DNA of 64,000 nucleotides from Utricularia gibba. Taxonomy: Eukaryota; Streptophyta; Magnoliopsida; Lamiales; Lentibulariaceae. The notes under the pieces are model-generated. The model saw nothing but the letters and a program-made list of their open reading frames with translations. It made no database searches and had not been told where the DNA came from. Positions 1,516 to 22,705 of the stretch are shown one piece after another (positions within the stretch are counted from its first letter, which is position 1; each line of letters starts with the position of its first letter). The translations under genes were made by a program, and so were the position numbers. The stretch spans positions 3,224,001 through 3,288,000 of the forward strand of contig CM007992.1 in assembly GCA_002189035.1 (NCBI GenBank), given 5' to 3'.

Positions 1516-3144
1516 GAGTGAATGAATTTGGAGAAGGGTCACTCTCTGTATATATGCACAAAAGAGCACAAAAGATACCCATGACTTCACGCAATCTTCC
1601 TCCCAAGTTGGACTTTAAGTCCTTCATTTTCACTAGGCACAGCTTCTTCTATGGCTAGTTAAAAATGCCCGAATAGGAGGTATACTTCCATCTCTACAAC
1701 TCACTCTATGACTCTAGTTAAAGAATGAGATTTGACTCTTGTTTATCTCTCTAGGATTGCATACTGATTATCCCCCCCCCCCCCCTCCCGGTTATTTTAT
1801 GGTACGTCCACGGGACGTCGACAGTTTACTGAGAGTTCTTGACCATTTTCACCCCTTGAGACCTTAGCTTCTTTGTCATGCTTCACCATCAGATTTTTGA
1901 TGACTTCACAAAAGAACATCCTTTGCAAGTGTATTAGACATGGTCAAATTCTATTTTCAATCCATTAGACACGAAATACTGAGCATTTTCCCAACCCACA
2001 AGTGAACTTGACCTCATCAGACCTTTAAAGTTAATGGCACCAGACACGAATTTTTACATGTGAAGCCACAAGACGAGAAAACGTCAAACTGAAGAAGGCA
2101 GGTTGTGAGTTCTATCAGCTTATGTCATACGATTAAAAAACTGAAATTGATTATTATATTATTTGATTAAATTTAACATATCATAATCTTCAACCACTAT
2201 GTGAAAGGGGATGTAGGATCCACTATGACATTAATTGGATGTTAGGCTTAATTATTGGGGTAGATGGTACCCAACTACATGCCCACATTTTTAACTTAAG
2301 TAATCCTAATTTGCATTAATTATTTTGCATAGATGTCCTTTCCCCTATTTAATTATGTATTATTGCAAACATCTCGTTGCCAAACAAAGAAGAAGAAAGG
2401 AAAAATGAAAAATGAAGAAGAAGAGGATAAGTACCTCAAAGGGGTTCCAAACTCGTGGGGACCAACCAGCACCACCACCCATCCATGTTTGTGATTGCCA
2501 AGTTGAGTGTCTTGAAAGCGGCTTCCTACTTGTAATCACTAATCACTGCAAAAGACTCCTTCAGCAGCCCTCCACCCACTAATCATGTTGTGGGTGTGGC
2601 AATGAAGGCTAACAGGACGGTGATCAGTGGATCCAAGGCTACTGATGTGGTTCAGAATCACAGTTGAATTTGTGGGCTGGTTTTCACATAAGTGGCTTGG
2701 ACTTATTCGAGCAATCAACGAGTGGAAGAAATAATTGGCCTCCTCTCGTTTTCTTGCTTTTTTGATTGGTATTCAGCTGAAAACTTCGTAAAGCTAAAAA
2801 ACAAATAGAAGCGCGTCGATTCGTTGCGTATGAACCTAAGCCGCCGGTTCTGTTGATGAAAGCAGCTGCTAATCAGATGATAACCACATCTTCTTTTGGA
2901 GCCAACCGTTTTCTACCCGGCTTCTGGACTCCATCTGGCATCATAGTCTCTGTAGAATGAATGAGATTGAAAATCCTTTTCATGGTGTTTCCAGGTAATT
3001 GCACGATATGTACACATGTCGATAAATCTATAATGTAATCAAATGGGGTTGCGTGTTCGACTCACGTACCATGTGCACAGAACCAGAGTAGTTGTAGTGG
3101 TGCATCATCTGCCCTACCCACGTTGAAGAGAAAAGCTGAAGGTC
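1516..3144. other. Intergenic: protease promoter and PPR 3' flank
   Basis: No convincing coding exon. It holds a run of 14 C residues at 1772-1785, and just after it (1804-1818) a short inverted repeat of ACGTCC and GGACGT separated by three bases, an ACGT-core arrangement of the kind bound by plant bZIP factors. A TTCGACTC string near 3055 resembles a Pol III B box, but no tRNA fold surrounds it. Confidence 0.5.
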
Positions 3145-5322
3145 TCAAGAAATTGAGCTACGCGACACGCGTTCTCCTTGTATGGTTTCATCAGCAAAGC
3201 CATTCCAATATCCATGGAAAAGGACCTGATGATCATCAGGTGGCATATTTAAAGCAGCCAGATGTTCAGGAACTTTTGTTTCGAGAGTCAGGTCTCTGAG
3301 TGCTTGGTATATTTCTAAGCAGTTTGGATGAGAGCGATCCTCCGCATTGAAAGCATGCACCTTGTTGTGCAGTTCAATCCAGCTCCAACCTGGTACCTTT
3401 TTTATTCCTTCCTGCCTCATCAGCCGTTTCACGTTTGCCTTTGCGTCCCACCTCTTTAGGTTGCCGTACATATCAGACAGAAGAACATAAGTGCAATGAT
3501 CTCCAGGATCAAGTTGAAGGATGTGGGTAGCAACTTCAGTTGCAGTTTCGATGTCACCACAAGCCCTGCAAGAACCTAATAATGTTTTCCACACCATTAC
3601 ATCAGGTTGAAATGGCATTTCTCTGATGAGCTCCTTTGCTTCATCCAAACGTCCTGCTCTGCCGAGCAAGTCAATGGTACATGCATAATTCTCCATCCGG
3701 GGTGGAACTCCGTATTGAGTTTCCATTGATCTAAAAAAACGAAGACCTTCATCAACAAGCCCTATGTGACTGCATGCATTGATAACTGCAACAAAGGTGA
3801 TGTGATCTATGTTGACACCTCGCTTTGTCATTAGGTTGAAGATATCAAGAGCAACAGTGCCTTGCCCGTGCTGTGCATAAGCAAAAATAATGGAGTTCCA
3901 TGTAACAGAGCTCTCATCATGAGATGCCTCAAAGGATTTCCATGAATCCTCTACCATACCACATTTTGAGTACATGAATATCAAAGCACTGGCTATGTAC
4001 TCACTTTGTTCCAAGCATGACTTAATGACTAACGAATGAATCTGCCGGCCCAACTGGAGTGTGGCTAAATCTGAGCATGATCTTAAAACTGCCGCAAAGG
4101 CATATTGATCAATCACAGCACAATAAAGAAGCATATGCTGGAAGACCACCAATGCATCTTCACTCAGTCCATTCTGTGACAAGCCATTTAGAATTGTATT
4201 CCATGAAATGCGGTCCTTGAAGTGAGTACCATGGAACACTCTGCATGCATCTTCCACAGATTGGCTGGTCGATTTCAAGTACATGTGCATCAAAGAATTA
4301 GCTATTGGAGTTCTGTGTTCAAATCCCCTCTTAATCAATAAACCATGCATAGATTTTCCAAATCTCACCTGCACATCACCTATGCAAGGGCTTAATATGC
4401 TGCAATACGTATAATCATCCATGTGCACTCCTACTCCCATCATCTCAAGAAAAATTCTGAATCCGTGCTCCTGCAGATTAGATTCCATGAAAGCCGCTAA
4501 CATTGAGTTCCATGTCACTATATCACGGTAACCATCAGCAAAAGCAAACACCTTCATTGAGTCTTCGATGCATTCACAATCTGCATATGCAGTAATTGAG
4601 GCATTAAGCACAGTACTCTCATGCTCCAGACCATGCTTTGTTATTTTCCCATGAAGCTGCCTCATCAAATCATACTGCTGGGAACGAACATTCAGAGTCA
4701 GAAGTTGTGCAAACGTTGCATCATCAACTCTCACTCCCTCCTTCTCCATAGAAATAAAGAGGTCCATGCAACGTTTCGCATCCCCAACTCCGACATACGC
4801 TCCAATCAAAGCATTCCAAGACACCGAATTTCGCTCCGTCATATGCATAAACACCTTATATGCATACTCAACCCTGCAGTACTTGGCATACATGTCCAGA
4901 AGTGCACTAGCAGCATACACATTATCAGCCAACCCCATCTTCACAACATCCGAATGGACTTGTTGGCCACAAAGTAGGGTACCCCCGTTCGCTATACCCT
5001 TGAGGATGCTTCCAAATGTATAGGCATCAAACGAAAAATCGAGTCCCTTCATACATCTCAACACCTCCCATGCATTTAGAAAGCTACCCAGCCTCACGTA
5101 CCCTGATATAATTGTGTTCCAAGAGACAGTGTCCCTGTGAGGCATTTCGTCGAACAGCTTCAGCGCACTGCCCAAATGACCACATTCCAAGTAGCACCGT
5201 GTGAGGTTGTTGGAGGCGTATGGATCTGCGGTAAGCGACAACTTAATTGCTTCACAATGTGCAACTTCAACTCTCCACAGCGGCCAACATCCTTTCCCAA
5301 CAAAGCTGTGCAATACCCTCAT
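3145..5322 (-). CDS. PLS-class PPR protein with E/E+ tail, At3g25970-like
   Basis: Intronless gene for a 725-residue PPR protein. Members bind organellar RNA base by base, and the PLS class usually specifies C-to-U editing sites in mitochondria or plastids. The repeats run through almost the whole protein, with recurrent SWNT/SWNA, MYAKC and HGQG signatures. The end carries the E and E+ motifs (LLGRAGRLDEA, VPGWSWIE, DRSHP) but no DYW deaminase domain, so editing would need a partner deaminase. The start MRVLHS and the order of repeats match Arabidopsis At3g25970 closely. There is no strong transit peptide in the first 20 residues, so the target organelle is uncertain. The tail after E+ is about 30 residues longer than I remember for the family. 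Confidence 0.9.
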   Translation of the reverse strand: MRVLHSFVGKGCWPLWRVEVAHCEAIKLSLTADPYASNNLTRCYLECGHLGSALKLFDEMPHRDTVSWNTIISGYVRLGSFLNAWEVLRCMKGLDFSFDAYTFGSILKGIANGGTLLCGQQVHSDVVKMGLADNVYAASALLDMYAKYCRVEYAYKVFMHMTERNSVSWNALIGAYVGVGDAKRCMDLFISMEKEGVRVDDATFAQLLTLNVRSQQYDLMRQLHGKITKHGLEHESTVLNASITAYADCECIEDSMKVFAFADGYRDIVTWNSMLAAFMESNLQEHGFRIFLEMMGVGVHMDDYTYCSILSPCIGDVQVRFGKSMHGLLIKRGFEHRTPIANSLMHMYLKSTSQSVEDACRVFHGTHFKDRISWNTILNGLSQNGLSEDALVVFQHMLLYCAVIDQYAFAAVLRSCSDLATLQLGRQIHSLVIKSCLEQSEYIASALIFMYSKCGMVEDSWKSFEASHDESSVTWNSIIFAYAQHGQGTVALDIFNLMTKRGVNIDHITFVAVINACSHIGLVDEGLRFFRSMETQYGVPPRMENYACTIDLLGRAGRLDEAKELIREMPFQPDVMVWKTLLGSCRACGDIETATEVATHILQLDPGDHCTYVLLSDMYGNLKRWDAKANVKRLMRQEGIKKVPGWSWIELHNKVHAFNAEDRSHPNCLEIYQALRDLTLETKVPEHLAALNMPPDDHQVLFHGYWNGFADETIQGERVSRSSIS

Positions 5323-5768: not shown

Positions 5769-7141
5769 TCAAAAATCCCACAGCACTTCTTCATCAAGAA
5801 GCTGATCCTCAGTTTCTTGATTTGCGGTATCTTCCTCAGGTCTCTGCGTCTCCACAGGACAATCCCCCTGAAACATAACAGAGGTTTAGGAAAAGTAGAG
5901 TCTTGTTGCTGAAGAAGCAACAGCAGTAGCTTCTTCATGAGGAAAGGAATGGAGGTTTGTAGTAAGCACACTCACTAGCTCCTCCGTCAAGAGTTTCAAT
6001 GCATCACGATTAATCAGCGAGCGTTGTCCCTGGGGACAAAAATGTACGTTTTCAGAATGCACATTCAAGCAGAGGAAGAGAGTGGACTAGAAGGAGGGCA
6101 AGCAAGAAATCCTGATGCCTAAATGGGGAAGATATCATTGCTTTTTCAACAGGCAAAGCTGATGTCTTTTACCTCTGATTCTGCATTCTTCTTGGAAGAA
6201 CCTCGGCTCAAGGGGACGCTTTTCTTGGAATTGGATGTTGTTTTCCGCTTCTTGACCTGATTGTAAGTTCAAAAAGGTGAGAAGTAATTAGTCATTGAAG
6301 GGTAGTTCAATCACTAGAATATTCAACCATACAAAAAATGTATGCAGTATAAACCAGGAATCATAAGAATGAAAGGAGAAGTGTGAGCAGAGTCAAAGAG
6401 GGTAAAGGACAAGTACTTGGGCAGTTTTTCTATTCAGTGCTTTCCACAAAATCTCTTTCAGTTGGATCTCTTCCTTGGAGTTGAGGTACTTATCAACCTA
6501 AGAAGCATGACCACAAATCCAATTGGGGTCACTAATAAATCAAAGCAAAGTAACCGCATAAACAACAGGCGCAAAAATTCCAGCAGACTTATGCCAAGTG
6601 AAGCAATTACAACGAGAAAGTTCAAATTCAAATTTTAAATGCAAGCATTACTTCAATTGTCTGAAACACACACCTCTGCATCAAGAATGTCTGATAAGCT
6701 GTCAGGATTCCTCCTCTTCTTTCCTTTGTCACTCAGTTTATGATGTATAATCTCGGATGGAGTAGGATTACCTCCATCAAACCCCCTGCACAGGGACTTT
6801 CCAATCAACATCTGACACAACGAATTCAATAATCCATTCATTCATTCATATTCATTCTGAAAAAAACGGTTAAATTACCCTGAGACTCTTCCCTTCGTAT
6901 CTCAGAGCACTCGCTTCTTGACCTGCAAACATCAAAACTACACAGAACATGGAATCAGACGACGACACAAATTGAAAGCATAATATCGAAGAATCACCAG
7001 GGTATCCTTCAAAACTGAAAATGTATCGAACGAGATTATCAAAAGACGCTTCAAATCGATTGTCGTCCAGCAGAAAAAAAAAAAAAAAAAGAAAACATAA
7101 ACTTACTCAAGATTTGCGTCGGAAAAACGACGCACCGTCAT
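5769..7141 (-). CDS. Short BRF1-like protein (TFIIIB subunit C-terminal region only)
   Basis: I reconstruct eight coding exons, all with GT-AG borders and matching phases: 7107-7141, 6998-7014, 6879-6922, 6674-6811, 6417-6497, 6173-6256, 5976-6029 and 5769-5867. They encode 183 residues with no stop or frameshift. Three patches resemble the C-terminal half of plant BRF1, the TBP-binding subunit of RNA polymerase III factor TFIIIB: FDGGNPTP near residue 43 (BRF1 has a GGLDGG-DPPAF patch), SDILDAEVDKYLNSKEE near 72 (BRF1 DIDD-EVD-YLHNEEE, with a downstream W and NR), and INRDALKLL near 139. The N-terminal zinc ribbon and the two cyclin folds of real BRF1 are absent, and no upstream exons for them are visible to 9 kb. 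It could be a shortened paralogue or a diverged adaptor. The family assignment is tentative; the exon structure is firmer. Confidence 0.5.
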
Positions 7142-9349
7142 CGCCGATGTGTCCGGGTTCTAATTTCAAGTACGAGAGGCGGTTCTCTCCGACTACCACA
7201 TAGGTCTTGAAGCTTTTATATACATTGTTTTAATTACGTCATCATTATTTTATCTATTTTAATCCAAAATAATTTTATCTTTTATGTATAAAATTGTGGA
7301 ATTATTTTTCATATGATAAGGTGATGCTCTGATATCAAATATAACAATCAATATTCTTCTTGTACAATATTCTATGTTTCGAATATGCAAATCTTATAAT
7401 TTTTAAGTTTTATCATTTCGAAAAAAAAACCTTATATAAAATTTTAAAAATAACTCCATTTAAATACGTCTATTTCCTCATTTATAGCCAATCTAAAAAT
7501 AATGAAAACTTATAATTTTCAAAAAATGATCAAATTCTTCAACCCCTATCAATCATTACACAATAATAGGACCAAAATCCTAAAATTTTAGAGATATTTT
7601 AATCTTTAAAAAAAATCTAATATTTGACAGGAATAATCCAATATAAGAAGAGTATAGACTTGTCAATTATGTCAATAATTTAAATTTCAGAAATATTTTA
7701 TTTTAAAAAAACCGAAATCTAAAATTTTTTAGGAGTAGGTTAACTAATATACGATAGATTTTCCAATTACGTCCATAATCAAAAAAATGTTGGAATATTT
7801 CCTTTTTAAAAAATTAAAATCCAAATTTTTTCGAAATTTTATGGAAATTTGAAAAATTACAACCAACTAAACAATGACGGAGTTGGTCAAGGTAGCTTAC
7901 GCAAATAATTTATATTAGTTGTCTAAATGTCATAATTAGTTTATAATAAATAATATTTTAATCTTCAATGTTTGGAAACCCTTCATAATTGATTTCCACT
8001 GTTTCAAAGTCGAGTAAAAATAATCTCTATTATTTACACAAACGGCATAATTGATCCTCAATTTCAAACCCTAATTTTTTCCTAATTCAATTTTAATATT
8101 ACCATCCACTTGCGCCGGTGCCGTCGACCGTCTTCCGTTGCTCATTGCCTGCGTTCGTGCCAACACCCATCGCCCATTGAGCGCCAAGCGGCAAGTGCGG
8201 GCGTCGGTGATTTTATCAAATTATGAAATAATGGAAATCAAATATATTTTGATTTTTAAATATTGTAAATCAATTATAAGTGATATTTAAAATATAAAGA
8301 TAAAAACGATTGAAATAAAAAAGATTGAAAACTAAGTATACTCGATACCTCAAATTGTTGAAATTAAATATGTTTGGTGCATCAAAATGTAAAGATTAAA
8401 TATGATCAATACATCAAAGTGTGGGGAGTGAAGAAGTGTTCTTAAAAATTTTGTAAGCTATTTTTTATTTTTTAAAAAAATAAAAAAACCGTAAAAATAA
8501 AATATCACTTATAATAGATTGTAATTGTTTTATAAAATCGTAAAAATAAAATATAAAAAACAAAAATAAGATGTAAAAATATATTATTGCTTATTTTTCC
8601 AAAAATAATTTATGTAATGTAATTTTAAAAATATTTTTAATAAAATTATTTTTACAATTGATAATATTTTTGAATAAAATTATCTTTATTTTTTAAAAAT
8701 AGAAATAAATTTCAAAATTTTTCTAAAATAATATTTAAATATGTCAATAAAGACTAATTATGTTATCTTTGCAGTATTTGCTGATGTATGCGATTCAGTT
8801 GGAGAGTTGGTTGTGAGGTTCCAACAAGTAGAACTGTACGGCAACTTGAAGCCATTAGACTCAGCCCCTCATGGATGGAATACATCACTTAGGCGAGGCC
8901 CCAGACTACGCAGTTAGCGTGGTGCGGCTGCTCCTCTTCCCCAAGGCGAAAAACTGGAGTAAAAACTGGTGCAAGGTGGATTTTTTTTTCCCTTTTTCAG
9001 AAATCTAGACTCCAGTGAAGAATGTCGTGAACTCAAGTCTTTTTACAGCTGATCTGCAACAGTAATTTGTCGGAATTATGAGAAGCACCCTACAAATTTG
9101 AAGAAAGCGGTGATACTGTCTACGGAATCTGGAAATCCGCGCAACGGCTGATTCTTTTGCCCACAACCTACATGCCATTTTCCTTTCCCGGTTCCATCCG
9201 TTTCACGGCAACTGTTCAATAATTCCCGCAAAACCAAAACCAGCATTTAAAGCACTGCATAGTTTAAAGCCTCAAATTTGCACGTTCGTCTCACACGCAA
9301 ATGCTGTGCCCTCTTCTTTGATTCATTTAAGTCGAAGTTCCTTCTTTTA
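7142..9349. other. AT-rich intergenic region
   Basis: About 2.2 kb, mostly AT-rich with many short homopolymer runs and no coding signal. A GC-richer patch lies at 8100-8205. The last few hundred bases (about 9000-9349) are less AT-rich and probably form the promoter and 5' UTR of the transporter gene downstream. Confidence 0.5.
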
Positions 9350-11555
9350 ATGATGGGTTGGAGGTATAAAGCTGGTTTGGGGATGATTGGAGCTTTTGTC
9401 TTCGTATGGGTCGCTGCTGCTGAAGTTACTCAGGTGGGTTTTTCTTGAAATGAACTGAAACATGGTTCCTGAAAGTTTTAGTGATATGGGTTGCTTCCAA
9501 GTCTGAATTTTGGAGAAACTAGATGTGGTTTAGTGCCTTTTTGCAGAAACTTACTGTTTTTGTTTTTGCAGAAAATTTTTGTAGAGTACAGACAGCCTTT
9601 TGTTCTCACGTATCTGTGGATCTCTCTGATGGTGGTGTATCTCCCAATAGCAATATGCAGAGATTTTGTGTACAAGTTACTAGAGAAGTGTTGCGCCAGA
9701 AAGATTCTGAATTTGAGTTGGATGAAATGCTACGAAGCACAGGATCCTTCAGAAGCACTTTTGAGAGTCTACTCCATCAAAGATCCAGATTTGCATCAAA
9801 TAGAAGCTGGACGATCATTCCTGCTGAAGAAAGGAGAGAAATCACATGGACTAGGCTCTTGGGACGTTGTCAAATGCAGCCTTTGTCTGGCCCCTGTCTG
9901 GTTCATGACTGAGGTAGTTAACCAGCATCAGATCCTCCATTGTTGTCGCTTTTATCAGCTTCCTAGCCAACGTTGCTGCAAATTTCTGCAGTACTTTTCA
10001 AGCTCTGCCCTGGCGTTCACTAGTGTGGCCAGCACAACGGTGCTAACTTCCACCTCCGGTCTCTTTGCGCTTGCTTTTGGAGCCATCTTGGGACAGGACT
10101 CAATAAACATCGCCAAATTGTCAGCAGTCGTCATCACTGTGGTCGGAGTTGCAATGACCAGCGTTGGTAAAACTTGGGCCTCAGATGAGTCTCTTTGTGG
10201 GGGAGAGTAAGCATTCAGACCACTCTCGTTTTTGCACTTGATTTGTGCTCACTCGCACTAATCAGACAAGATTCAAACTCTCTTTTCCAGAACCGTAAAG
10301 CATTCTGTAATGGGAGACATCTTCGGTCTGCTCTCTGCAGTTTTCTACGGCTTGTATACAGGTAATGATCTCTTATCTTCTCCGACGCTCGATCAAACTG
10401 GGAAGCGTAATGCAGACGTCCCCATTGCAGTGCTTCTGAAGCGATACGCCGCATCCGGAGGAGAGCGAGTGGACATACAGAAGTGCTTCGGCTACATTGG
10501 ACTCTTCACCCTCGCCGGCTTCTGGTGGCTTGGTAAGAAACCATCCTTTCCACTCTGCTTGTGTTTAAATTAAAAACTCAATGGAGAACAATTATACACT
10601 TAAATTTCAAGTACATAGATTATATTAAAAAAAATTAGTTTCAATCAATTAATATTGATTCACACTATTTCAATTTCATTTATTAATGTATAATTTTTTG
10701 TTCTAATACTTGACCTCAAGTCAAATTGGTTTTTTATTTAATTAAAATTTGTTTTTTTTTTGTATGATGATAGCTAATACTCAAATTATAAATTAATCTA
10801 ATTTTTATTGCTTAAATTCAATAGATCGTGTTAATCTAATGCATGAAACTTATCTTAGTCATCCAAACTATATAGTAAGACAAATTTTATTATATCATAT
10901 TGAAATTAAGAATATTCGATAGAAAACAAATATTTAAGTACATAAAAAAACATAAATTATATTATAAAGTATTAAGTTCAATTGATTACTAATAATACAT
11001 AATATATTATATATTTATTATTTTATTTTCATCTAAAATTGTTTATTCTGATAGTTTTTTTTCATGTAACTCAAGTTGTTTCGATTCATGGCAGCTTGGC
11101 CACTTACTTTCGTCGGGATTGAGCCTCAGTTGAAGCTCCCAGGCTCATCATCAGTTGCAGAAGCCATCTTCTTCAATGGCCTCGTCGGAAGCGTCCTCTC
11201 CGACTACCTCTGGTACGCACCTGCACTGCATCTCTCTCAATAATTCAACAACACCATCAGCATCGCACTCCACGCCGGCGGTGATGAACAGGGCTCTTGC
11301 GGTTGTCTGGACGACTCCCCTGGTGGCGACTCTGGGCATGTCATTAACGATCCCGGTAGCCATGGCGGCCGACATGTTCCTGCACGGCCGGCGCTACTCC
11401 TCCGTCTACATCGTCGGCGCGGTTCAGGCGAGTATTGCAGTTACTTGTCTGAGTGTTAGCACTCGTTTGGGTCTGTTCTGAACTGGTTTTGCTGCGTTCA
11501 GGTGTTCGCGGGCTTCATCATTGCCAATGTCTCGGACAAGATTTCTATTGTCTGA
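9350..11555 (+). CDS. EamA/SLC35F-type multi-pass membrane transporter
   Basis: Eight coding exons: 9350-9433, 9572-9913, 9992-10206, 10291-10361, 10431-10532, 11095-11212, 11292-11427 and 11502-11555. They give 373 residues of the drug/metabolite transporter superfamily, close to the Arabidopsis EamA-like proteins At3g07080 and At4g32140 (MGWRYKAG start, EVTQ at the first exon border, SVASTTVLTSTSG, GKTWASDES, VWTTPLVATLGMSLTIP, and VFAGF-IANVSD near the end). About ten membrane helices are expected, with a polar loop of about 70 residues (encoded in exon 2) after the second helix. The substrate is not known to me. The first of two adjacent in-frame ATGs was taken; the second may be used. 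Intron 7 starts with GC (GTTCAG/GCGAGT) rather than GT. The frame closes only with that junction. Intron 5 (10533-11094) is long and AT-rich. Confidence 0.87.
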
Positions 11556-11945
11556 AATGACATAAATGGCTGTAGAATAATTGGTACTTAGTATCCACAA
11601 AAAAATTCATAAATAGTTAGTAGACATTTACCCTGGTTAAACCCATTGTTTTTTTTAGTCTTTTTACTATAGTTGAAAATACAACTAATTAAATTATGAT
11701 TAGATTATTATTTTTTATTCTATTTTAAAAGAGTTTTAATATAAGTTATATTTGAAAAAATCATTCTAAAATTTATTTTAACAAAATTGAAAATAATTAT
11801 TATACAATGAATTCATAATTTTTTACTGTAGTAAAATTTATTTGAAAAGAGTTGATATATATTTTTAAATATTTTTTAAAATGATTATTATACAATTAAT
11901 TAATTTTTAAAAATATAAAAATAATAAATTGATTTTAATAAATAA

Positions 11946-11982
<37 letters not shown>

Positions 11983-13769
11983 ATATATTATTAATATTTA
12001 TATTTTATAAATTTGTAATTTAAAAATATTTATTGTATATCATTCGTATTATAAAAATAAAAAATATTATATAAATGAGCAGCTCATTAGCATACTTGAA
12101 TTTAGGTCACCTAACTATGTTAATTTTTTAAACCCTAGACTCAAATTAAGTCATCCAACTATGTTAATGGGCAGCCCATCAACATAGTTGGTTTTAGGAT
12201 TTAATAAATGAGAATTAGTACTTAGTAGTGTAATAGCTTTTTTCATTCCTTTTCTTCTTCCAAATCCTCAAAGTAAACTTGTGGTTATGGAAATCTTTCC
12301 TTTAAATCATTATTAAACCAATGCAGCTTCAAATCGGGTTTTTGAAGAGTAGAAAACTTGAAAAAAAAAAAAAGTTTTATATACTTTTTTGAAGTTGTAC
12401 ATTTCTTTTTTTTTTTCTAGTTTTAAAGCTTCCTATTATGGAAACAAGCTGATGTTATTTTGCTATAATTTCTTGATTTTAAGAGGTGCATATGATTGAG
12501 TAATCATTCAATCTTTCTGTATCTTATCTTGTGGTTGATTTGGCTGATGAATCTGAATTTTTAAAAAATAATTTTGGAATTCCAGAGACTAACTCATCTT
12601 TAAACAAAAAAAATGTGAATTTTATTGATACGATCACTTTTTGTATAATTCGGTAAAAAGAAAGATAATATATAAATACTATCTTTATAAACTATGTGAA
12701 AAAATGATGATTATCAATTAAAAATTTTAGAATGAGTACTTGAAATCACCCTCGTCACTGTGACTATTGCCATAACCATGACTATCGTTTTCACCGCGTT
12801 GCCTGCTCTGCCACGATGCCCCACTCGTCAATGTCACGTGCCCCACTACGGAGCTGACTAATGGATCTGTTCAACAGCAACATAAAAATATAAAATATTT
12901 TTATAGATAATGTTATATTAATAATTTTATTATATTGAAATATTGAAAACCAATTTTGTCATTATTTTGAAAAAGTATAGGTTAATTATGTTAAATCGTT
13001 AAAACAGTGGAGATAAAACGGTAATCGATTGTAACTAATTTTACAAATCTCCAACACATTTTTTTGATGATTTTAGCAGCATTTTTTTTAAAAAATAGAA
13101 TTAACCCTTAATCTAAGAGTCAAAACCATGTTTAATTAATGAGAACACGATATAATCCCATAAAAATAATGGCATATTTTTATACATGGTAATAATTATT
13201 TTTCTAATTAATACACACGATAATAATAAATACAGGACATCTTGAATTCCACAAAAATAATGAATGCTGAATCTTGGATCCAATTTCAGATGTTTTTTAG
13301 TAAAATAAAACTTTTGTTTCACACATGTTTCAATTATAAATAAATATTTCATATATAATTTTGACACAGAAACAATTTTTGTTATAAAAAAATTAAAATA
13401 TAGAAAAACTTATTATTTTTTAGTAAAATAAGCTTTAGTAGAATAAAACTTATTATTTTTTTCAATTCTATTTTATCAAAATATTTATGAAAAAGTAATT
13501 TTAAGAAATTATAAAAGAAGCTTGAATTTTCATTAAGTAATTTTTATAGTTAATCCCAACTGTTTTAACTTAATGGTACGTTTAGTCCATACTATTTGAC
13601 ATAAAAAATACGTTTGGTCCCCATTAAAAGAATTAATATTTAATATTTTAACTTTAGGGTAGTCGTAACAGTGCACACTGTGAAAATTGTTTATCTGGTT
13701 TCTACTTCACAGTAAATCTACTGCCTCTTTGAATTTCTTTGCTTGCAGAGTGGCATTAGCAAGGAGATA
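11556..13769. other. AT-rich intergenic region with TA microsatellite and hairpin
   Basis: Contains a (TA)n tract around 11950-11980 and a near-perfect hairpin at 12155-12191. The rest is AT-rich DNA without exons. From about 13660 the sequence becomes similar to the region upstream of TPS copy 2, so the duplicated unit begins about here. Confidence 0.5.
12155..12191. repeat. 18-bp inverted repeat (hairpin) with 1-nt loop
   Basis: The left arm begins CCAACTATGTTAATGGGC and the right arm is its reverse complement with one mismatch; one base separates them. Diverged versions of the same words (CTAACTATGTTAAT, GCAGCTCATTAGCA) occur at about 12080-12130, so the hairpin may be the core of a larger, decayed foldback element. 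Confidence 0.7.
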
Positions 13770-16700
13770 ATGCCATTGGCTCTTCCGATCTCTTCCTTGA
13801 TTCGTTGTTAGTATACTCTGCGCATTTTTTAAGTGAGAAAAAGTGTGTGGAGAGTTATCTCCTGAGTTGTTGGTGTTTTTTTGCAGGTGATGCATACCCA
13901 AGCATACCAGCATGGAGGGCTAAGGGCTGTGTGGAGGTGAACTAGATGGGCTTTTTTTTTTTGTCATTTTGAGAAGCAGGTTTCATGTCTTCTTCCATGT
14001 GATCCAGAACAAAGAGGGGCTCATTGGAAGAATAAGGGAGAAGATTAACAGTGGGAAGGTGGAAATATCTCCATCAGCATATGATACGGCATGGGTGTCG
14101 ATGGTGCCAGCAGGAGATTATGAGCTGAAACCGCGCTTTAGAGAGTGCTTGCAGTGGATAGTGAAGAATCAGAATGAAGATGGGTCATGGGGGTTGAATC
14201 CAGGAGGCCATCCGGATCTGGTTAAAGACTCTCTTTCTTGCACCTTGGCTTGTGTTCTTGCCCTTCACAAATGGAAGCTGGACCAGACACTAATTGATAG
14301 AGGTAAGGTTGAGGTCTGTTTGGTGTAGTTCAAATAACTAACTCTAAAAAAGTGATTCTTTACGTTTAAGAAAATCTTTAGTTTTTATTGGAGTAAGAAT
14401 CCTTCAGTTTCTCAAAAAAATGAAACACTTTATTGTTTCAATTTCAAGTGGAACAAAAGCAATACGTGTTTTGTTCGAAAATTTTATTTAGAAATACTTT
14501 TATTGAAATTGAATCTGCACCAAACAAATTCCTAATATTTTGCTATCTGAACTTAGATCACATTGAAATGCAGTTCCTTATCTGGATTGCAGGATTGGAG
14601 TTCATAGCTTCACATGCTTGGGCTGTAACAGATAGAAATCAGATTTCTCCGGTTGGATTCGACATTACTTTTACTGGGATGATTAAATATGCCAACCAAA
14701 TGCATTTATCATTGCCATTGAACCAAGCTTTGGTTGCTTCACTACTAGAGATTAGAGACTCTGAGATGAGGTTGGTGCCTACTTCTTCCAGTTACATAGA
14801 GTTAACAAAGATATTCAACTTGTTTGGATCCTGTCTTTTAGAGGAAACCAAAACCTGGGATATGTATCAGAAGGATTAGGAAGTTCATGTAACTGGCATG
14901 CAGTCATATCATGTTTCCAAAGAAGCAATGGCTCAATATTGAACTCGCCGGCAACCACAGCAGCTGCTTTGATTCATGTACAAGATGAGAATTGCATGAA
15001 GTATTTGGTGTCTACTGTCAATGCTTGCAATGGATGGGGTACTACTCCTTCATACTAATCCTCTTGAATCCTGATTCAGTTGGTGAAATGATCATGTTTT
15101 TCTGGCTTGTCTTATGTCAGTGCCTACAATGTACCCCTTCGAAACATACAGCCGACTCATCATGGTTGATATGCTCGAAAACATGGGGATAGACCAGTAT
15201 TTTGAACAAGAGATTGAGAATATTCTTGATCAAGTGTATAGGTGAACAGCACAGCGATCCTCATTCATACGCATTTATCTTTTGATCCTCTGTTGTTGTA
15301 TTGCATCGACTTTGTGGCCTGAACAGAGGTTGGCTTATAAGAGAAGATGAGCTGTTTTCAGATATCTTTTGCCAGGCTCTCTCATTTCGCCTTCTAAGGA
15401 AGAAGGGATATGATGTCTCATCAGGTGCTGTGTTTTTTTCCTTCTGAAATAGACATTAAAGTTTATCTGCAACGTCTATTTCATGATTCAGATGAGCTGG
15501 CTGAGTTTGTGGAGCAGGAACACTTGCTCAAAAGGCTTGGCATGCAAAATGACTGCTTGAGTACTGCACACAAGCTTTACCAGGCTTCAAGGATAAAAGT
15601 CCATGAAAAAGAAGATGTTCTTGAGAGAATTCATTCATGGACTGCAATATATCTGCAACAGGAGATGAGCAACAACACTATTTTAGATGAAAACTTTTGG
15701 AAACAGATGATTAAGAACACATTTGATGAAATATTTGATCTCTGTGACGGAATCTCTGATATGTGTCTTCCGTCTTATCTGAAACCATCAAGCTGGAATA
15801 TGACCTGAAGAACTTTCATGGAAACCTTGATGCTATAAGAACCCGAAGAAGCATCGATTTATACAGCCTTCAAGATTTTCATGTTCTGAAAACAGCATAT
15901 AGGTAACTAACTACTGACTGGCTTGCAATGTTATGTTTCTGCTGGTTGATTTCCATGTGGTCTCTTGTATCTTCTATGTAGACTCCCACTGATTCATAGT
16001 GGTGGCATTCTCTTGCTCTCTGCTCAAGATTTCACAACTCATCAAGCTGAATACCAAGAAGAACTAAAACAGATGGAAAGGTATATGTGTATATCATAAC
16101 TTCTCTGATCCCCTCTACAAACTATGGAAGCTAATGTTATGCATTCAACATGCAATAGGTGGTTTACTGAATCCAGATTGGATCAACTAAACCAAGGAAG
16201 AAAAATACTGCACATTTCTTACTTCTCAACTGCTGCTGCCATTGTTGGTCTGGAGTTATCCTCGGTCCGAATAGCTTATAGTCAGACAATTGTTCTTATA
16301 TCTTGCATCGATGATTTTTTCGACCATTATGGGTCTCAAGAAGAGGCTCTCTCTTTAATAGATTTAGTGAGGAAGTATGCTGCCCACTTTTGCTTTCTTT
16401 CCGCCTAATCCAGATCTTAATAACCTCCTCTTATGCCTGGATTGCAGGTGGAATGTAGAGCCAGGAACTTCGTATTTCTCTGAAGAAGTTGAAATTTTGT
16501 TCACTGCATTGTATACAACAGTTAATGAAGTAGCAGAAAAGGCTTCTCACTAGCAAGGATGGTGCATGAGACAAGAACTAGTTAACATGGTAGCGGAAGA
16601 ATCTTCACATCTACTGTTTTCCCAACACTCTCTAACCATATGTTTTTCTTTTTTTTTTTGGAGTGGCATGAGCTTCTGACAAGTTTTGCAAGAGGAAAGA

Positions 16701-17305
16701 ACTCTTGGAGCAGCAGCAACAACATACAAAATGTTGATGAGTATATGGATTTTTCATCAAAAAGCCTGGGGTGCAAACTTTGTTTCTCCATGTCTGTTCA
16801 TTTTCTAGGAGTGAAAGTAGCCAAAGAAATGTTCACATCCAGAGAGTGGAGTTCCTTGTCCTACAGTGCATCTGTTGTCTGCAGACTTCTGAATGATCTG
16901 AAGACATACAAGGCATTGTGCTCTGATATGATGCATTCCTCCGAACACCTTCCCCGCATACTCTTAACATGTTGTTTTATGCAGAGAGAGCAAGAAGAAG
17001 GTGTTCTGAACATTGTGAGCGTGCTGATGATGATCGAGAATGCTTCAGAGGAAGAGGCTCTGTCAAAGCTCGAGCAAATTGTGGAATGCCATCGGCGCAA
17101 AGTGATGCAAATGGTTTATCAGAGAGAAGGAAGCAGCATTGCAAGAGAATGCAAACTACTCTTCTGGAAGTCATGCCAAATTGCTTATTTCCTGTACTCC
17201 CACACTGGAGGAGATGAGTTCACTTCTCCTCATGGTGTTGTTTTGGATATCAATGATGTGATTTGGGAGCCACTTAGGCCTTCCCTGCTTCCAAATCACA
17301 TCTGA
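13770..17305 (+). pseudogene. Terpene synthase TPS-e/f copy 1 (kaurene-synthase-like), disrupted
   Basis: Fourteen exon equivalents: 13770-13806, 13887-13936, 14008-14302, 14593-14770, 14842-15038, 15121-15241, 15327-15424, 15492-15706, 15793-15902, 15982-16080, 16159-16374, 16448-16589, 16664-16912 and 16985-17305. The gene matches copy 2 exon by exon and keeps the class I metal-binding motif DDFFD. Two lesions are visible. First, codon 16551-16553 in exon 12 is TAG where copy 2 has CAG. Second, the exon 8 donor reads ATGATT at 15707 where copy 2 has GTGATT; without it, exons 8 and 9 do not join in frame. Truncation at the TAG would remove the second metal-binding motif and the C-terminal helices. 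As in copy 2, intron 13 begins with GC (16913). I infer a recent pseudogene; an assembly error at either site cannot be excluded. Confidence 0.8.
13996..15598 (+). repeat. Tract apparently identical to 18703-20305 (TPS copies)
   Basis: From 13996 to 15598 this sequence appears identical to 18703-20305 at a constant offset of 4707 bases, introns included. Substitutions appear on both sides: C/T at 13995 versus 18702, and G/A at 15599 versus 20306. The tract covers exons 3 to 7 and the first half of exon 8. I compared all visible reading frames and sample lines, not every base by machine. Confidence 0.8.
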
Positions 17306-18484
17306 ATTGTTGAGCTGAAGTCAATGCAATTCTAAAAGCATTTTTACTCAGTTTTTGGAAATGCCGACATAGTATTTTCGAGAATTGAGTTATTAGGTTT
17401 TCGTTATGTTTGTATATATTTTCGGAAATCATAATATTAAAATAAATATTATAAATTATATTTTGAACTATTTTGAGAAGTAAATTGAGTTTCATTATTT
17501 CCATTTTCGTAAAAAATGAAAAAACAATATTACTCATTTCTGTAACATTTACTTCATTTCCAAAAATACCATATCAATATTTTTGTAAATGAATAAAGAT
17601 GATCTTTATAAGAGGATAACAAAAATGATAACTTTTTTCTATATAGATTCATATTTTATACAAATTTATCTATTCTATTTTTATTGAATAAATTTAGTAA
17701 GTATTTTAATATTATATTTTAGAAGAATCATAATAAAGTTTATATATAAACTATTGTTTGATTAATAATTTGTGTAATATTAGCATAATTTTTAAATTTA
17801 TTATATCTAATATATAAAATTTTATAAATAATAAAATATTTTTTATTATATACATAACATAATAATTACAAATCTAATGACGATTATAAAATACGATTTA
17901 CACTCTTTCTATTTATCTATTATTAATGTTATATAGATTTTATTCTTAAGAATTTTTTTAAATAAAATTTAGTTTTATATTTGATAATAAAACTATATTT
18001 GAATTATTGTCAGAGCCACTACCATGCATCTCGCAAAGATTCAAAACCTTGCCGGAGAAGCAGTCCTTTGAAGCTTTGAAGGTGTTCCGATGCGGCAGAG
18101 GACGATGCGCGAGCACCGATAGGGTGATGGGTCGAGAATGAGAGTGTGGGAAGATGGCTGGTTAGACACGGCCGGAGCTTTAAAGGTGTCCAAATACTCT
18201 TACCGGAAGTATCTGTGCACGTCCCAATGGTCTATAAACCTTTCCTCCTCTGGATGTCATGCCACTTTCTTTCTCTACCTAAACTTAGTTTTCTGTTAGA
18301 GTCAAGAAAAAGCTGACTTTCTATCTTTCTACTCATACACTGAGTATTGCACTTCAGGGAAGTTGTAACAGGGCGCTGTCTGAAAGTTGTTCATCTTGTT
18401 TCTTCTAAGCTCCAATGGAGATCACAATAAATCTACTGCCCCTTTGAATTTCTTTGCTTGCAGAGTGGCACTAGCAAGGAGATA
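17306..18484. other. Spacer between the tandem TPS genes
   Basis: AT-rich from about 17300 to 18000, then a more GC-balanced stretch that acts as the upstream region of TPS copy 2. Bases about 18360-18484 resemble the sequence before copy 1. No other gene is seen. Confidence 0.5.
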
Positions 18485-21400
18485 ATGTCATTGGCGCTTC
18501 CGATCTCTTCCTTGATTCGTTGTTAGTATACTCTGCGCATTTTTTAAGTGTGTGGAGCTTTATCTCCTGAGTTGCTGGTGTTTTTTTTTGCAGGTGATGC
18601 ATATACAAGCATGCCAGCATTGAGGGCTAAGGGCTGTGTTGAGGTGAACTAGATGGGCTTTTTTTTTTTGTCATTTTGAGAAGCAGGTTTCATGTCTTCT
18701 TTCATGTGATCCAGAACAAAGAGGGGCTCATTGGAAGAATAAGGGAGAAGATTAACAGTGGGAAGGTGGAAATATCTCCATCAGCATATGATACGGCATG
18801 GGTGTCGATGGTGCCAGCAGGAGATTATGAGCTGAAACCGCGCTTTAGAGAGTGCTTGCAGTGGATAGTGAAGAATCAGAATGAAGATGGGTCATGGGGG
18901 TTGAATCCAGGAGGCCATCCGGATCTGGTTAAAGACTCTCTTTCTTGCACCTTGGCTTGTGTTCTTGCCCTTCACAAATGGAAGCTGGACCAGACACTAA
19001 TTGATAGAGGTAAGGTTGAGGTCTGTTTGGTGTAGTTCAAATAACTAACTCTAAAAAAGTGATTCTTTACGTTTAAGAAAATCTTTAGTTTTTATTGGAG
19101 TAAGAATCCTTCAGTTTCTCAAAAAAATGAAACACTTTATTGTTTCAATTTCAAGTGGAACAAAAGCAATACGTGTTTTGTTCGAAAATTTTATTTAGAA
19201 ATACTTTTATTGAAATTGAATCTGCACCAAACAAATTCCTAATATTTTGCTATCTGAACTTAGATCACATTGAAATGCAGTTCCTTATCTGGATTGCAGG
19301 ATTGGAGTTCATAGCTTCACATGCTTGGGCTGTAACAGATAGAAATCAGATTTCTCCGGTTGGATTCGACATTACTTTTACTGGGATGATTAAATATGCC
19401 AACCAAATGCATTTATCATTGCCATTGAACCAAGCTTTGGTTGCTTCACTACTAGAGATTAGAGACTCTGAGATGAGGTTGGTGCCTACTTCTTCCAGTT
19501 ACATAGAGTTAACAAAGATATTCAACTTGTTTGGATCCTGTCTTTTAGAGGAAACCAAAACCTGGGATATGTATCAGAAGGATTAGGAAGTTCATGTAAC
19601 TGGCATGCAGTCATATCATGTTTCCAAAGAAGCAATGGCTCAATATTGAACTCGCCGGCAACCACAGCAGCTGCTTTGATTCATGTACAAGATGAGAATT
19701 GCATGAAGTATTTGGTGTCTACTGTCAATGCTTGCAATGGATGGGGTACTACTCCTTCATACTAATCCTCTTGAATCCTGATTCAGTTGGTGAAATGATC
19801 ATGTTTTTCTGGCTTGTCTTATGTCAGTGCCTACAATGTACCCCTTCGAAACATACAGCCGACTCATCATGGTTGATATGCTCGAAAACATGGGGATAGA
19901 CCAGTATTTTGAACAAGAGATTGAGAATATTCTTGATCAAGTGTATAGGTGAACAGCACAGCGATCCTCATTCATACGCATTTATCTTTTGATCCTCTGT
20001 TGTTGTATTGCATCGACTTTGTGGCCTGAACAGAGGTTGGCTTATAAGAGAAGATGAGCTGTTTTCAGATATCTTTTGCCAGGCTCTCTCATTTCGCCTT
20101 CTAAGGAAGAAGGGATATGATGTCTCATCAGGTGCTGTGTTTTTTTCCTTCTGAAATAGACATTAAAGTTTATCTGCAACGTCTATTTCATGATTCAGAT
20201 GAGCTGGCTGAGTTTGTGGAGCAGGAACACTTGCTCAAAAGGCTTGGCATGCAAAATGACTGCTTGAGTACTGCACACAAGCTTTACCAGGCTTCAAGGA
20301 TAAAAATCCATGAAAAAGAGGATGTTCTTGAGAGAATTCATTCATGGACTGCATCATATTTGCAACAGGAGATGAGCAACAACACTATTTTAGATAAAAA
20401 CTTCCGGAAACAGGTGATTAAGAACACATTTGATGAAATATTTGATCTCTGTGACAGAATCTCTGATTTGTGTATTCCGTTTTATCTGAAACCATCAAGC
20501 TGGAATATGACCTCAAGAACTTTCATGGAAATCTTGATGCTATAAGAACCCGAAGAAGCATCGATTTATACAGCGTTCAAGATTTTCATGTTCTGAAAAC
20601 AGCATATAGGTAACTAACTACAGACTGGCTTGCAATGCTGTATTTGTGCTGGTTGATTTCCATGTGGTCTCTTGTATCTTCTATGTAGACTCCCACTGAT
20701 TCATAGTGAAGACATTCTCTTGCTCTCTGCTCAAGATTTCTCTACTCGTCAAACTCAATACCAAGAAGAACTAAAACAGATGGAAAGGTATATGTATATA
20801 TCATAACTTCTCTGATCCCCTCTACAAACTATGGAAGCTAATGTTATGCATTCAACATACAATAGGTGGTTTACTGAATCCAGATTGGATCAACTAAACC
20901 AAGGAAGAAAAATACTGCACATTTCTTACTTCTCAACTGCTGCTGCCATTGTTGGTCTGGAGTTATCCTCGGTCCGAATAGCTTATAGTCAGACAATTGT
21001 TCTTATATCTTGCATCGATGATTTTTTCGACCATTATGGGTCTCAAGAGGAGGCTCTCTGTCTAATAGATTTAGTGAGGAAGTAAGTATGCTGCCTCCTT
21101 TTGTTTTCTTTCCCTTAATCCAAAACTTAATAACCTCCTCTTATGCGTGGATTGCAGGTGGAATGTAGAGCCAGGAACTTGTTATTTCTCTGAAGAAGTT
21201 GAAATTTTCTTCACTGCATTGTATAGAACAGTTAATGAAGTAGCAGAAAAGGCTTCTCAGCAGCAAGGATGGTGCATGAGGCAAGAACTAGTTAACATGG
21301 TAGCAGACGAATCTTCACATCTAATGTTTTCCCAACACTCTCTAACCATATCTTCATTTCTTTTTTGTTTTGGAGTGGCATGAGCTTCTGACAAGTTTTG

Positions 21401-22016
21401 CAAGAGAAAAAAACTCTTGGAGCAGCAGCAACAACATACAAAATGTTGATGAGTATATTGACTTTTCATCAAAAAGTGTGGGGTGCAAACTTTGCTTCTC
21501 TATGTCTGTTCATTTTCTAGGATTGAAAGTAGCCAAAGAAATGTTCACATCCAAAGAGTGGAGTTCCTTGTCCTACAGTGCATCTGTTGTCTGCAGACTT
21601 CTCAATGATCTCAAGACATACAAGGCATTGTCCTCTGATATGATGCATTCCTCCGAACACCTTCCCCGCATACTCTAAAATTCTGTTTTATGCAGAAGGA
21701 GCAAGAAGAAGGTGCTCTGAACATTGTGAGCGTGCTGATGATGATCGAGAATGCTTCAGAGGAAGAGGCTCTGTCAAAGCTCGAGCAAATTGTCGAACGC
21801 CATCGGCGCAAAGTGATGCAAATGGTGTATAAGAGAGAAGGAAGCAGCATTCCAAGAGAATGCAAACTGCTCTTCTGGAAGTCATGCCAAATTGCTCATT
21901 TCCTGTACTCCCACACTGGAGGAGATGAGTTCACTTCTCCTCATGGTGTTGCTGTGGATATCAATGATGTGATTTGGGAGCCCCTTAAGCCTTCTCTCCT
22001 ATCAAATCACATCTGA
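18485..22016 (+). CDS. Terpene synthase TPS-e/f copy 2, kaurene-synthase-like class I diterpene synthase
   Basis: Fourteen exons: 18485-18521, 18594-18643, 18715-19009, 19300-19477, 19549-19745, 19828-19948, 20034-20131, 20199-20413, 20500-20609, 20689-20787, 20866-21081, 21158-21299, 21376-21624 and 21696-22016. They encode 775 residues, about the length of kaurene synthases. The N-terminus ([13 protein letters not shown]) looks like a plastid transit peptide. The N-terminal helical domain has [14 protein letters not shown] and QNEDGSWGL, but I see no class II DXDD acid motif. The C-terminal domain has DDFFD (residues 518-522) and, across the exon 13/14 border, NDLKTYKKE (663-671), the NSE/DTE motif. 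It therefore probably ionises a prenyl diphosphate such as a copalyl-type substrate; the product is unknown, and a linalool/geranyllinalool-type function is an alternative. Intron 13 is GC-AG. Exon 8 splicing through GTGATT at 20414 (an 86-nt intron) is inferred from frame. Confidence 0.85.
18703..20305 (+). repeat. Second copy of the apparently identical TPS tract
   Basis: Partner of 13996-15598. Outside the tract the two TPS copies differ at several per cent of positions, with indels in introns and flanks. Confidence 0.8.
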
Positions 22017-22705
22017 ATTGTTGAAGTAAAGTAAATGCAATTCCTCATAAAAGTATAACAAAATGATAATTATTTTTTTTACACACTAAATATAGATGAT
22101 TACTTTTCTAATATATTCATTAAACTACATTCAATAAAGATAATTAGAAAAAGATTAGTATTGAAATCTTGAACTGAACCGTAATTAGAACAAGTACTAA
22201 CGGTTTTAATTCAAAATTGGAATCGAAACCATTGAATCAAATCGAAACTAGAACTAGACGGTTATCATTTAAATGAATAATGCGTTTAAAATTATGATTC
22301 AAGTGGATTACACTTGTAATAAAATTTCAATAAAATTCTTATCTATAGAGAAGCGTGACAAGTGATACTGAAATTAAATAAGAATGAGATAATATTGCAT
22401 TTACATTTATTTGTTGTCCAATCACACACAAATATTTTAACAAAAATAATAGTACATGTTGAATTTCAAACATTTTGAATAGGTATATAAATAACCAAAT
22501 ATGACTCGGCTCTTTAGAGTTCTTGATGAACTCTTTATGAACTTTATTTCATCTTATTTAGTGGTTTTTCTTTTTGGTGGTGGGTTTTGGTAGCCCTATG
22601 GTTTCCTGTTATAAAAATTGGGGCTTTTGAATTTGGCAATCTCTATGTGGGTTCAATGCTTGGATATTAGCGGTTTTTTCTAGGGATGCTTTTGGAGGCT
22701 CAGGT
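22017..22705. other. TPS 3' flank and PPR promoter
   Basis: AT-rich; the 3' UTR of TPS copy 2 probably occupies the first 100 or so bases. No other gene is seen. Confidence 0.5.

Follow-up and report, generated by a model that had tools for sequence, protein, structure and literature searches.

A predicted BRF1-tail paralogue in Utricularia gibba with a partial TBP-binding domain and a replaced Pol III-contact segment

The locus studied here raises the question of whether Utricularia gibba carries a gene for the C-terminal part of BRF1 only, and whether its product could bind TBP without recruiting Pol III. The window, which is the whole 64,000-nucleotide stretch of DNA that was analysed, contains one such candidate, described in the initial annotation as a possible stand-alone BRF1 C-terminal paralogue. 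The span 5769-7141 on the minus strand corresponds exactly, from stop to start, to a predicted eight-exon gene with a spliced frame of 552 nt encoding 183 residues. As had been stated, the eight small exons splice cleanly: all seven introns (67-176 nt) are GT-AG, the G+C content is 28-43% in introns vs 45% in exons, and an in-frame stop is found upstream of the exon 1 ATG in the genomic frame. The predicted features are as follows.

7216-7222, minus strand: TATATAA resembling a TATA box, 81 nt ahead of the ATG, matched by consensus only
7107-7141, minus strand: exon 1, ATG, residues 1-12, start inferred
6998-7014, minus strand: exon 2, 17-nt micro-exon with a weak donor (CTG/gtgatt), the least certain part of the model
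6879-6922, minus strand: exon 3
6674-6811, minus strand: exon 4, residues 33-78, ending in DSLSDILDAE, the start of the BRF1 TBP-binding motif
6417-6497, minus strand: exon 5, residues 79-105, 81 nt, core of BRF1 homology block II
6173-6256, minus strand: exon 6, residues 106-133, K/S/T-rich with an NLS-like KKRK, replacing the C34-contacting helix of BRF1
5976-6029, minus strand: exon 7, residues 134-151, 54 nt
5769-5867, minus strand: exon 8, residues 152-183, acidic tail and stop

Exons 1-3, the micro-exon included, and residues 1-67 are putative and were placed by splice-site logic alone. Six matches of the TATATAA kind occur within 2.2 kb upstream of the gene, and the one listed is consistent with a promoter rather than proof of one. 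As for the neighbourhood, an intronless-looking gene of pentatricopeptide-repeat type lies directly downstream (3090-5320, minus strand), and the next gene upstream, on the opposite strand, resembles an SLC35F-like membrane transporter (9350-11560, plus strand), both as judged by eye. Farther along the plus strand, a 3.6-kb unit is tandemly duplicated (13707-17332 and 18422-22043) with 96.6% identity, and by eye its frames suggest a kaurene/copalyl synthase-type terpene synthase (AYDTAW..., DDFFD).

A BRF1 profile search, proposed as a check in the initial annotation, was run with Pfam on the whole protein and matched PF07741, the Brf1-like TBP-binding domain, over residues 72-135 (26.3 bits, E 9.3e-6), just above the curated gathering threshold of 25 bits. 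The match is partial, covering profile positions 1-64 of 99 and leaving 65-99 unmatched, and a complete homology block II including the C-terminal helix is not present. The best PDB match by phmmer was chain B of 1NGM, the fragment of yeast Brf1 that was crystallised together with TBP, although this match is weak (E 0.017). Neither the zinc ribbon (PF08271) nor the TFIIB repeat (PF00382) was matched in the protein, which agrees with the annotated absence of zinc ribbon and cyclin folds; it thus lacks the marks of a full BRF1/TFIIIB subunit, a zinc ribbon at the N-terminus followed by a pair of cyclin folds. Matches to PCF11 (E 0.15) and ClpC1 were weak and were dismissed as chance. For residues 1-67, no established homologue emerged from the Pfam, phmmer, BLASTP and MAFFT comparisons. 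Two weak alignments of this region to BRF1, one pairing RGFDGGNPTPS with GGLDGGSEPPA (BLASTP, 0.29) and one pairing QEAS...LC with QEAS...LC (MAFFT), are mutually incompatible, and neither is therefore claimed.

The relationship to BRF1 is most apparent in comparison with the full-length BRF1 of the same genome, on contig C413. In the core motif, 16 of 34 residues are identical between the window protein (DSLSDILDAEVDKYLNSKEEIQLKEILWKALNRK) and the BRF1 tail (DTLSDIDDHEVELYLHNEEEKKLKKVVWEEMNKE), with a BLASTP E value of 3e-8; the local alignment of the protein to the BRF1 C-terminus scores 93, while none of 2000 shuffles scored above 73. Moreover, on either side of the 27-codon core exon both genes have their introns at exactly the same base, codon and phase, one before the V of VDKYL/VELYL and the next 27 codons on, so that exon 5 is identical in length (81 nt), phase and boundaries to the corresponding BRF1 exon. 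Two such shared positions would arise by chance with a probability of about 1.3e-4 for two random introns each. Exon 7 is likewise 54 nt long and in phase 0, as is the BRF1 exon RLSKKVRFDVLEKLFDEL, with a similarity that is weak and above chance (block P 0.005). Since the core motif aligns and both flanking introns are shared, the gene belongs to the BRF1 lineage as a paralogue of the BRF1 C-terminal part, as first annotated, and we consider it very probable that it is an intact one.

The full-length gene, whose existence elsewhere in the genome had been a matter to check, lies at about 4263942-4268638 of C413 (locus L021, 2443-7139). It has the zinc-ribbon cysteines, the TFIIB repeats (PF00382, 106 bits) and a tail that matches PF07741 completely (1-99 of 99, 87.7 bits), whereas the window gene has only PF07741 positions 1-64. 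Because an intron interrupts its zinc ribbon, this real BRF1 escaped the genome-wide search with the zinc-ribbon profile; similarly, the whole-genome PF07741 search came back empty, controls included, since the domain is divided between exons, and this result is not proof of absence. Searches of the contig of the window gene with PF08271 and PF00382 also gave no match, but these were run exon by exon and can miss domains split by introns, and for this reason the exons of the genome's own BRF1 were taken as queries. With its N-terminal exons, tblastn found no credible match in 7142-9340, upstream of the window gene, so that neither profiles nor BRF1 exons detect the upstream zinc-ribbon exons that the initial annotation had named as evidence against a stand-alone gene. 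Genome-wide, the BRF1 N-terminal pieces and the tail match C413 only, except that the cyclin repeat weakly matches two TFIIB-type genes and that one further match is at chance level; the window gene sequence matches only itself. These searches thus gave a single full-length BRF1 and a single tail-only gene, in an assembly that may be incomplete and with further copies possible.

These results also bear on whether the predicted gene is the 3' part of a longer one, with zinc-ribbon and cyclin exons farther upstream or split off by rearrangement. The start is an ATG picked from sequence alone, and a split would produce just such a tail-only remnant. Nevertheless, besides the empty interval, the transporter-like gene on the plus strand begins near 9350, the genome search turned up a single BRF1 N-terminal half, which on C413 runs on into a full tail of its own, and the TATA-like site is located 81 nt ahead of the ATG, which together make this explanation highly improbable.

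The paralogue is well diverged. Over the 42-residue core block, 17 of its residues are identical to those of its own BRF1 and 14 to those of the yeast protein, compared with 19 identities between BRF1 and yeast, and judged from these values the tail-only copy is old or fast-evolving. The copy is single and divergent, and its missing N-terminal domains are what a truncated duplication predicts; the gene might be a decaying, untranslated partial duplicate of the BRF1 3' half. However, despite a core-block divergence at about the level separating plant and yeast BRF1, all 183 codons are free of stops and no splice site is broken, while simulated neutral drift to 44% amino acid identity left a mean of 5.8 stops, and none of 200 outcomes was free of them. 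As neutral drift that far would leave several stops, the reading frame is probably under selection, a judgement from simulation rather than from dN/dS, and a pseudogene is quite unlikely.

Homology block II, as seen in the Pol III pre-initiation complex of yeast, lies along the convex surface of TBP, where together with the Bdp1 SANT domain it covers the site used by TFIIA in the Pol II system, and its C-terminal helix (Brf1 492-509) touches the WH2 domain of the Pol III subunit C34 (PMC6066478). Compared with yeast Brf1 homology block II (PDB 1NGM, 6EU0), the window protein aligns over about 455-495 and, by this alignment, retains the part that traverses TBP. The annotated conservation of TBP-contact patches applies only to the initial part of homology block II, and there yeast D466 is replaced by Leu in the window protein; in the yeast brf1-II.6 mutant, D464 and D466 are both changed (PMC7077510). 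Six more positions common to plant and yeast BRF1 also differ. The 492-509 helix is unrecognisable, and at its position BRF1 has KEYLEEQAAKEAA vs RKTAQVKKRKTTSNSKK in the window protein, a basic stretch of different sequence without the pattern common to plant and yeast BRF1. This stretch is probably disordered, and by eye it resembles a nuclear localisation signal.

It is possible, though somewhat doubtful, that the tail-only protein is made and no longer binds TBP, its homology-block-II motif being a relic with another role. The core block identity of only 33-40% to yeast and own BRF1, the lost D466 equivalent, and the missing second part of a Pfam domain whose score barely passes the cut-off would all fit such a protein. 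On the other hand, the TBP-binding motif is the best-kept stretch, with W, N, L and acidic positions in common with yeast. We give about even weight to the reading of a real BRF1-tail paralogue of the AtBRF4CTD kind that binds TBP, and TBP binding taken by itself is a similarly balanced expectation.

Under the TBP-binding reading, the gene would encode a small protein, presumably expressed and nuclear, of which residues ~69-102 would lie on the convex, TFIIA-side surface of TBP. The annotated proposal that it binds TBP without recruiting Pol III is a fair hypothesis on the sequence, because the C34 helix is replaced and the zinc ribbon and cyclin folds are absent; lacking these three elements, the protein should be unable to bring in Pol III. 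It might then influence the division of TBP between TFIIIB, TFIIA and further partners, and a role as competitor is a tentative suggestion. If the protein does bind TBP and hold back tRNA and 5S transcription, it would represent a plant means of tuning Pol III. Extended to plant tail-only BRF proteins in general, the retention of the TBP-binding strand and the loss of the C34-reaching helix could suggest dedicated TBP-surface competitors, whose natural effect would be to inhibit TFIIIB from assembling or TFIIA from reaching TBP, although this broader idea is unlikely.

The layout itself has a counterpart in Arabidopsis, AtBRF4CTD (AT4G19550), which is reportedly traced to Knutson 2013. Contrary to the statement in the initial annotation that no protein of this layout had been described, AtBRF4CTD was already reported as having BRF1 C-terminal sequence without zinc ribbon, linker or cyclin folds (PMC7865254, PMC11319285). 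AT1G30455 was also considered as a stand-alone tail and was rejected, since under the name AtBRF5 it is recorded as having both a linker and a cyclin fold (PMC7865254). A literature search for separate Brf1 C-terminal fragments returned only work on Leishmania Brf1. Although counted in Arabidopsis, AtBRF4CTD has been set aside as an improbable TFIIB-like factor in a 2024 paper (PMC11319285). The window gene adds a second tail-only BRF, this one from a plant whose genome is very small; its frame is open, it has BRF1 introns, and its Pol III-contact segment is altered. Compared by published description, both are plant genes with similarity to the BRF1 C-terminus only, the window gene likewise having no zinc ribbon, linker or cyclin folds, and since AtBRF4CTD is already listed, the window gene is another member of an uncharacterised tail-only kind rather than a new layout.
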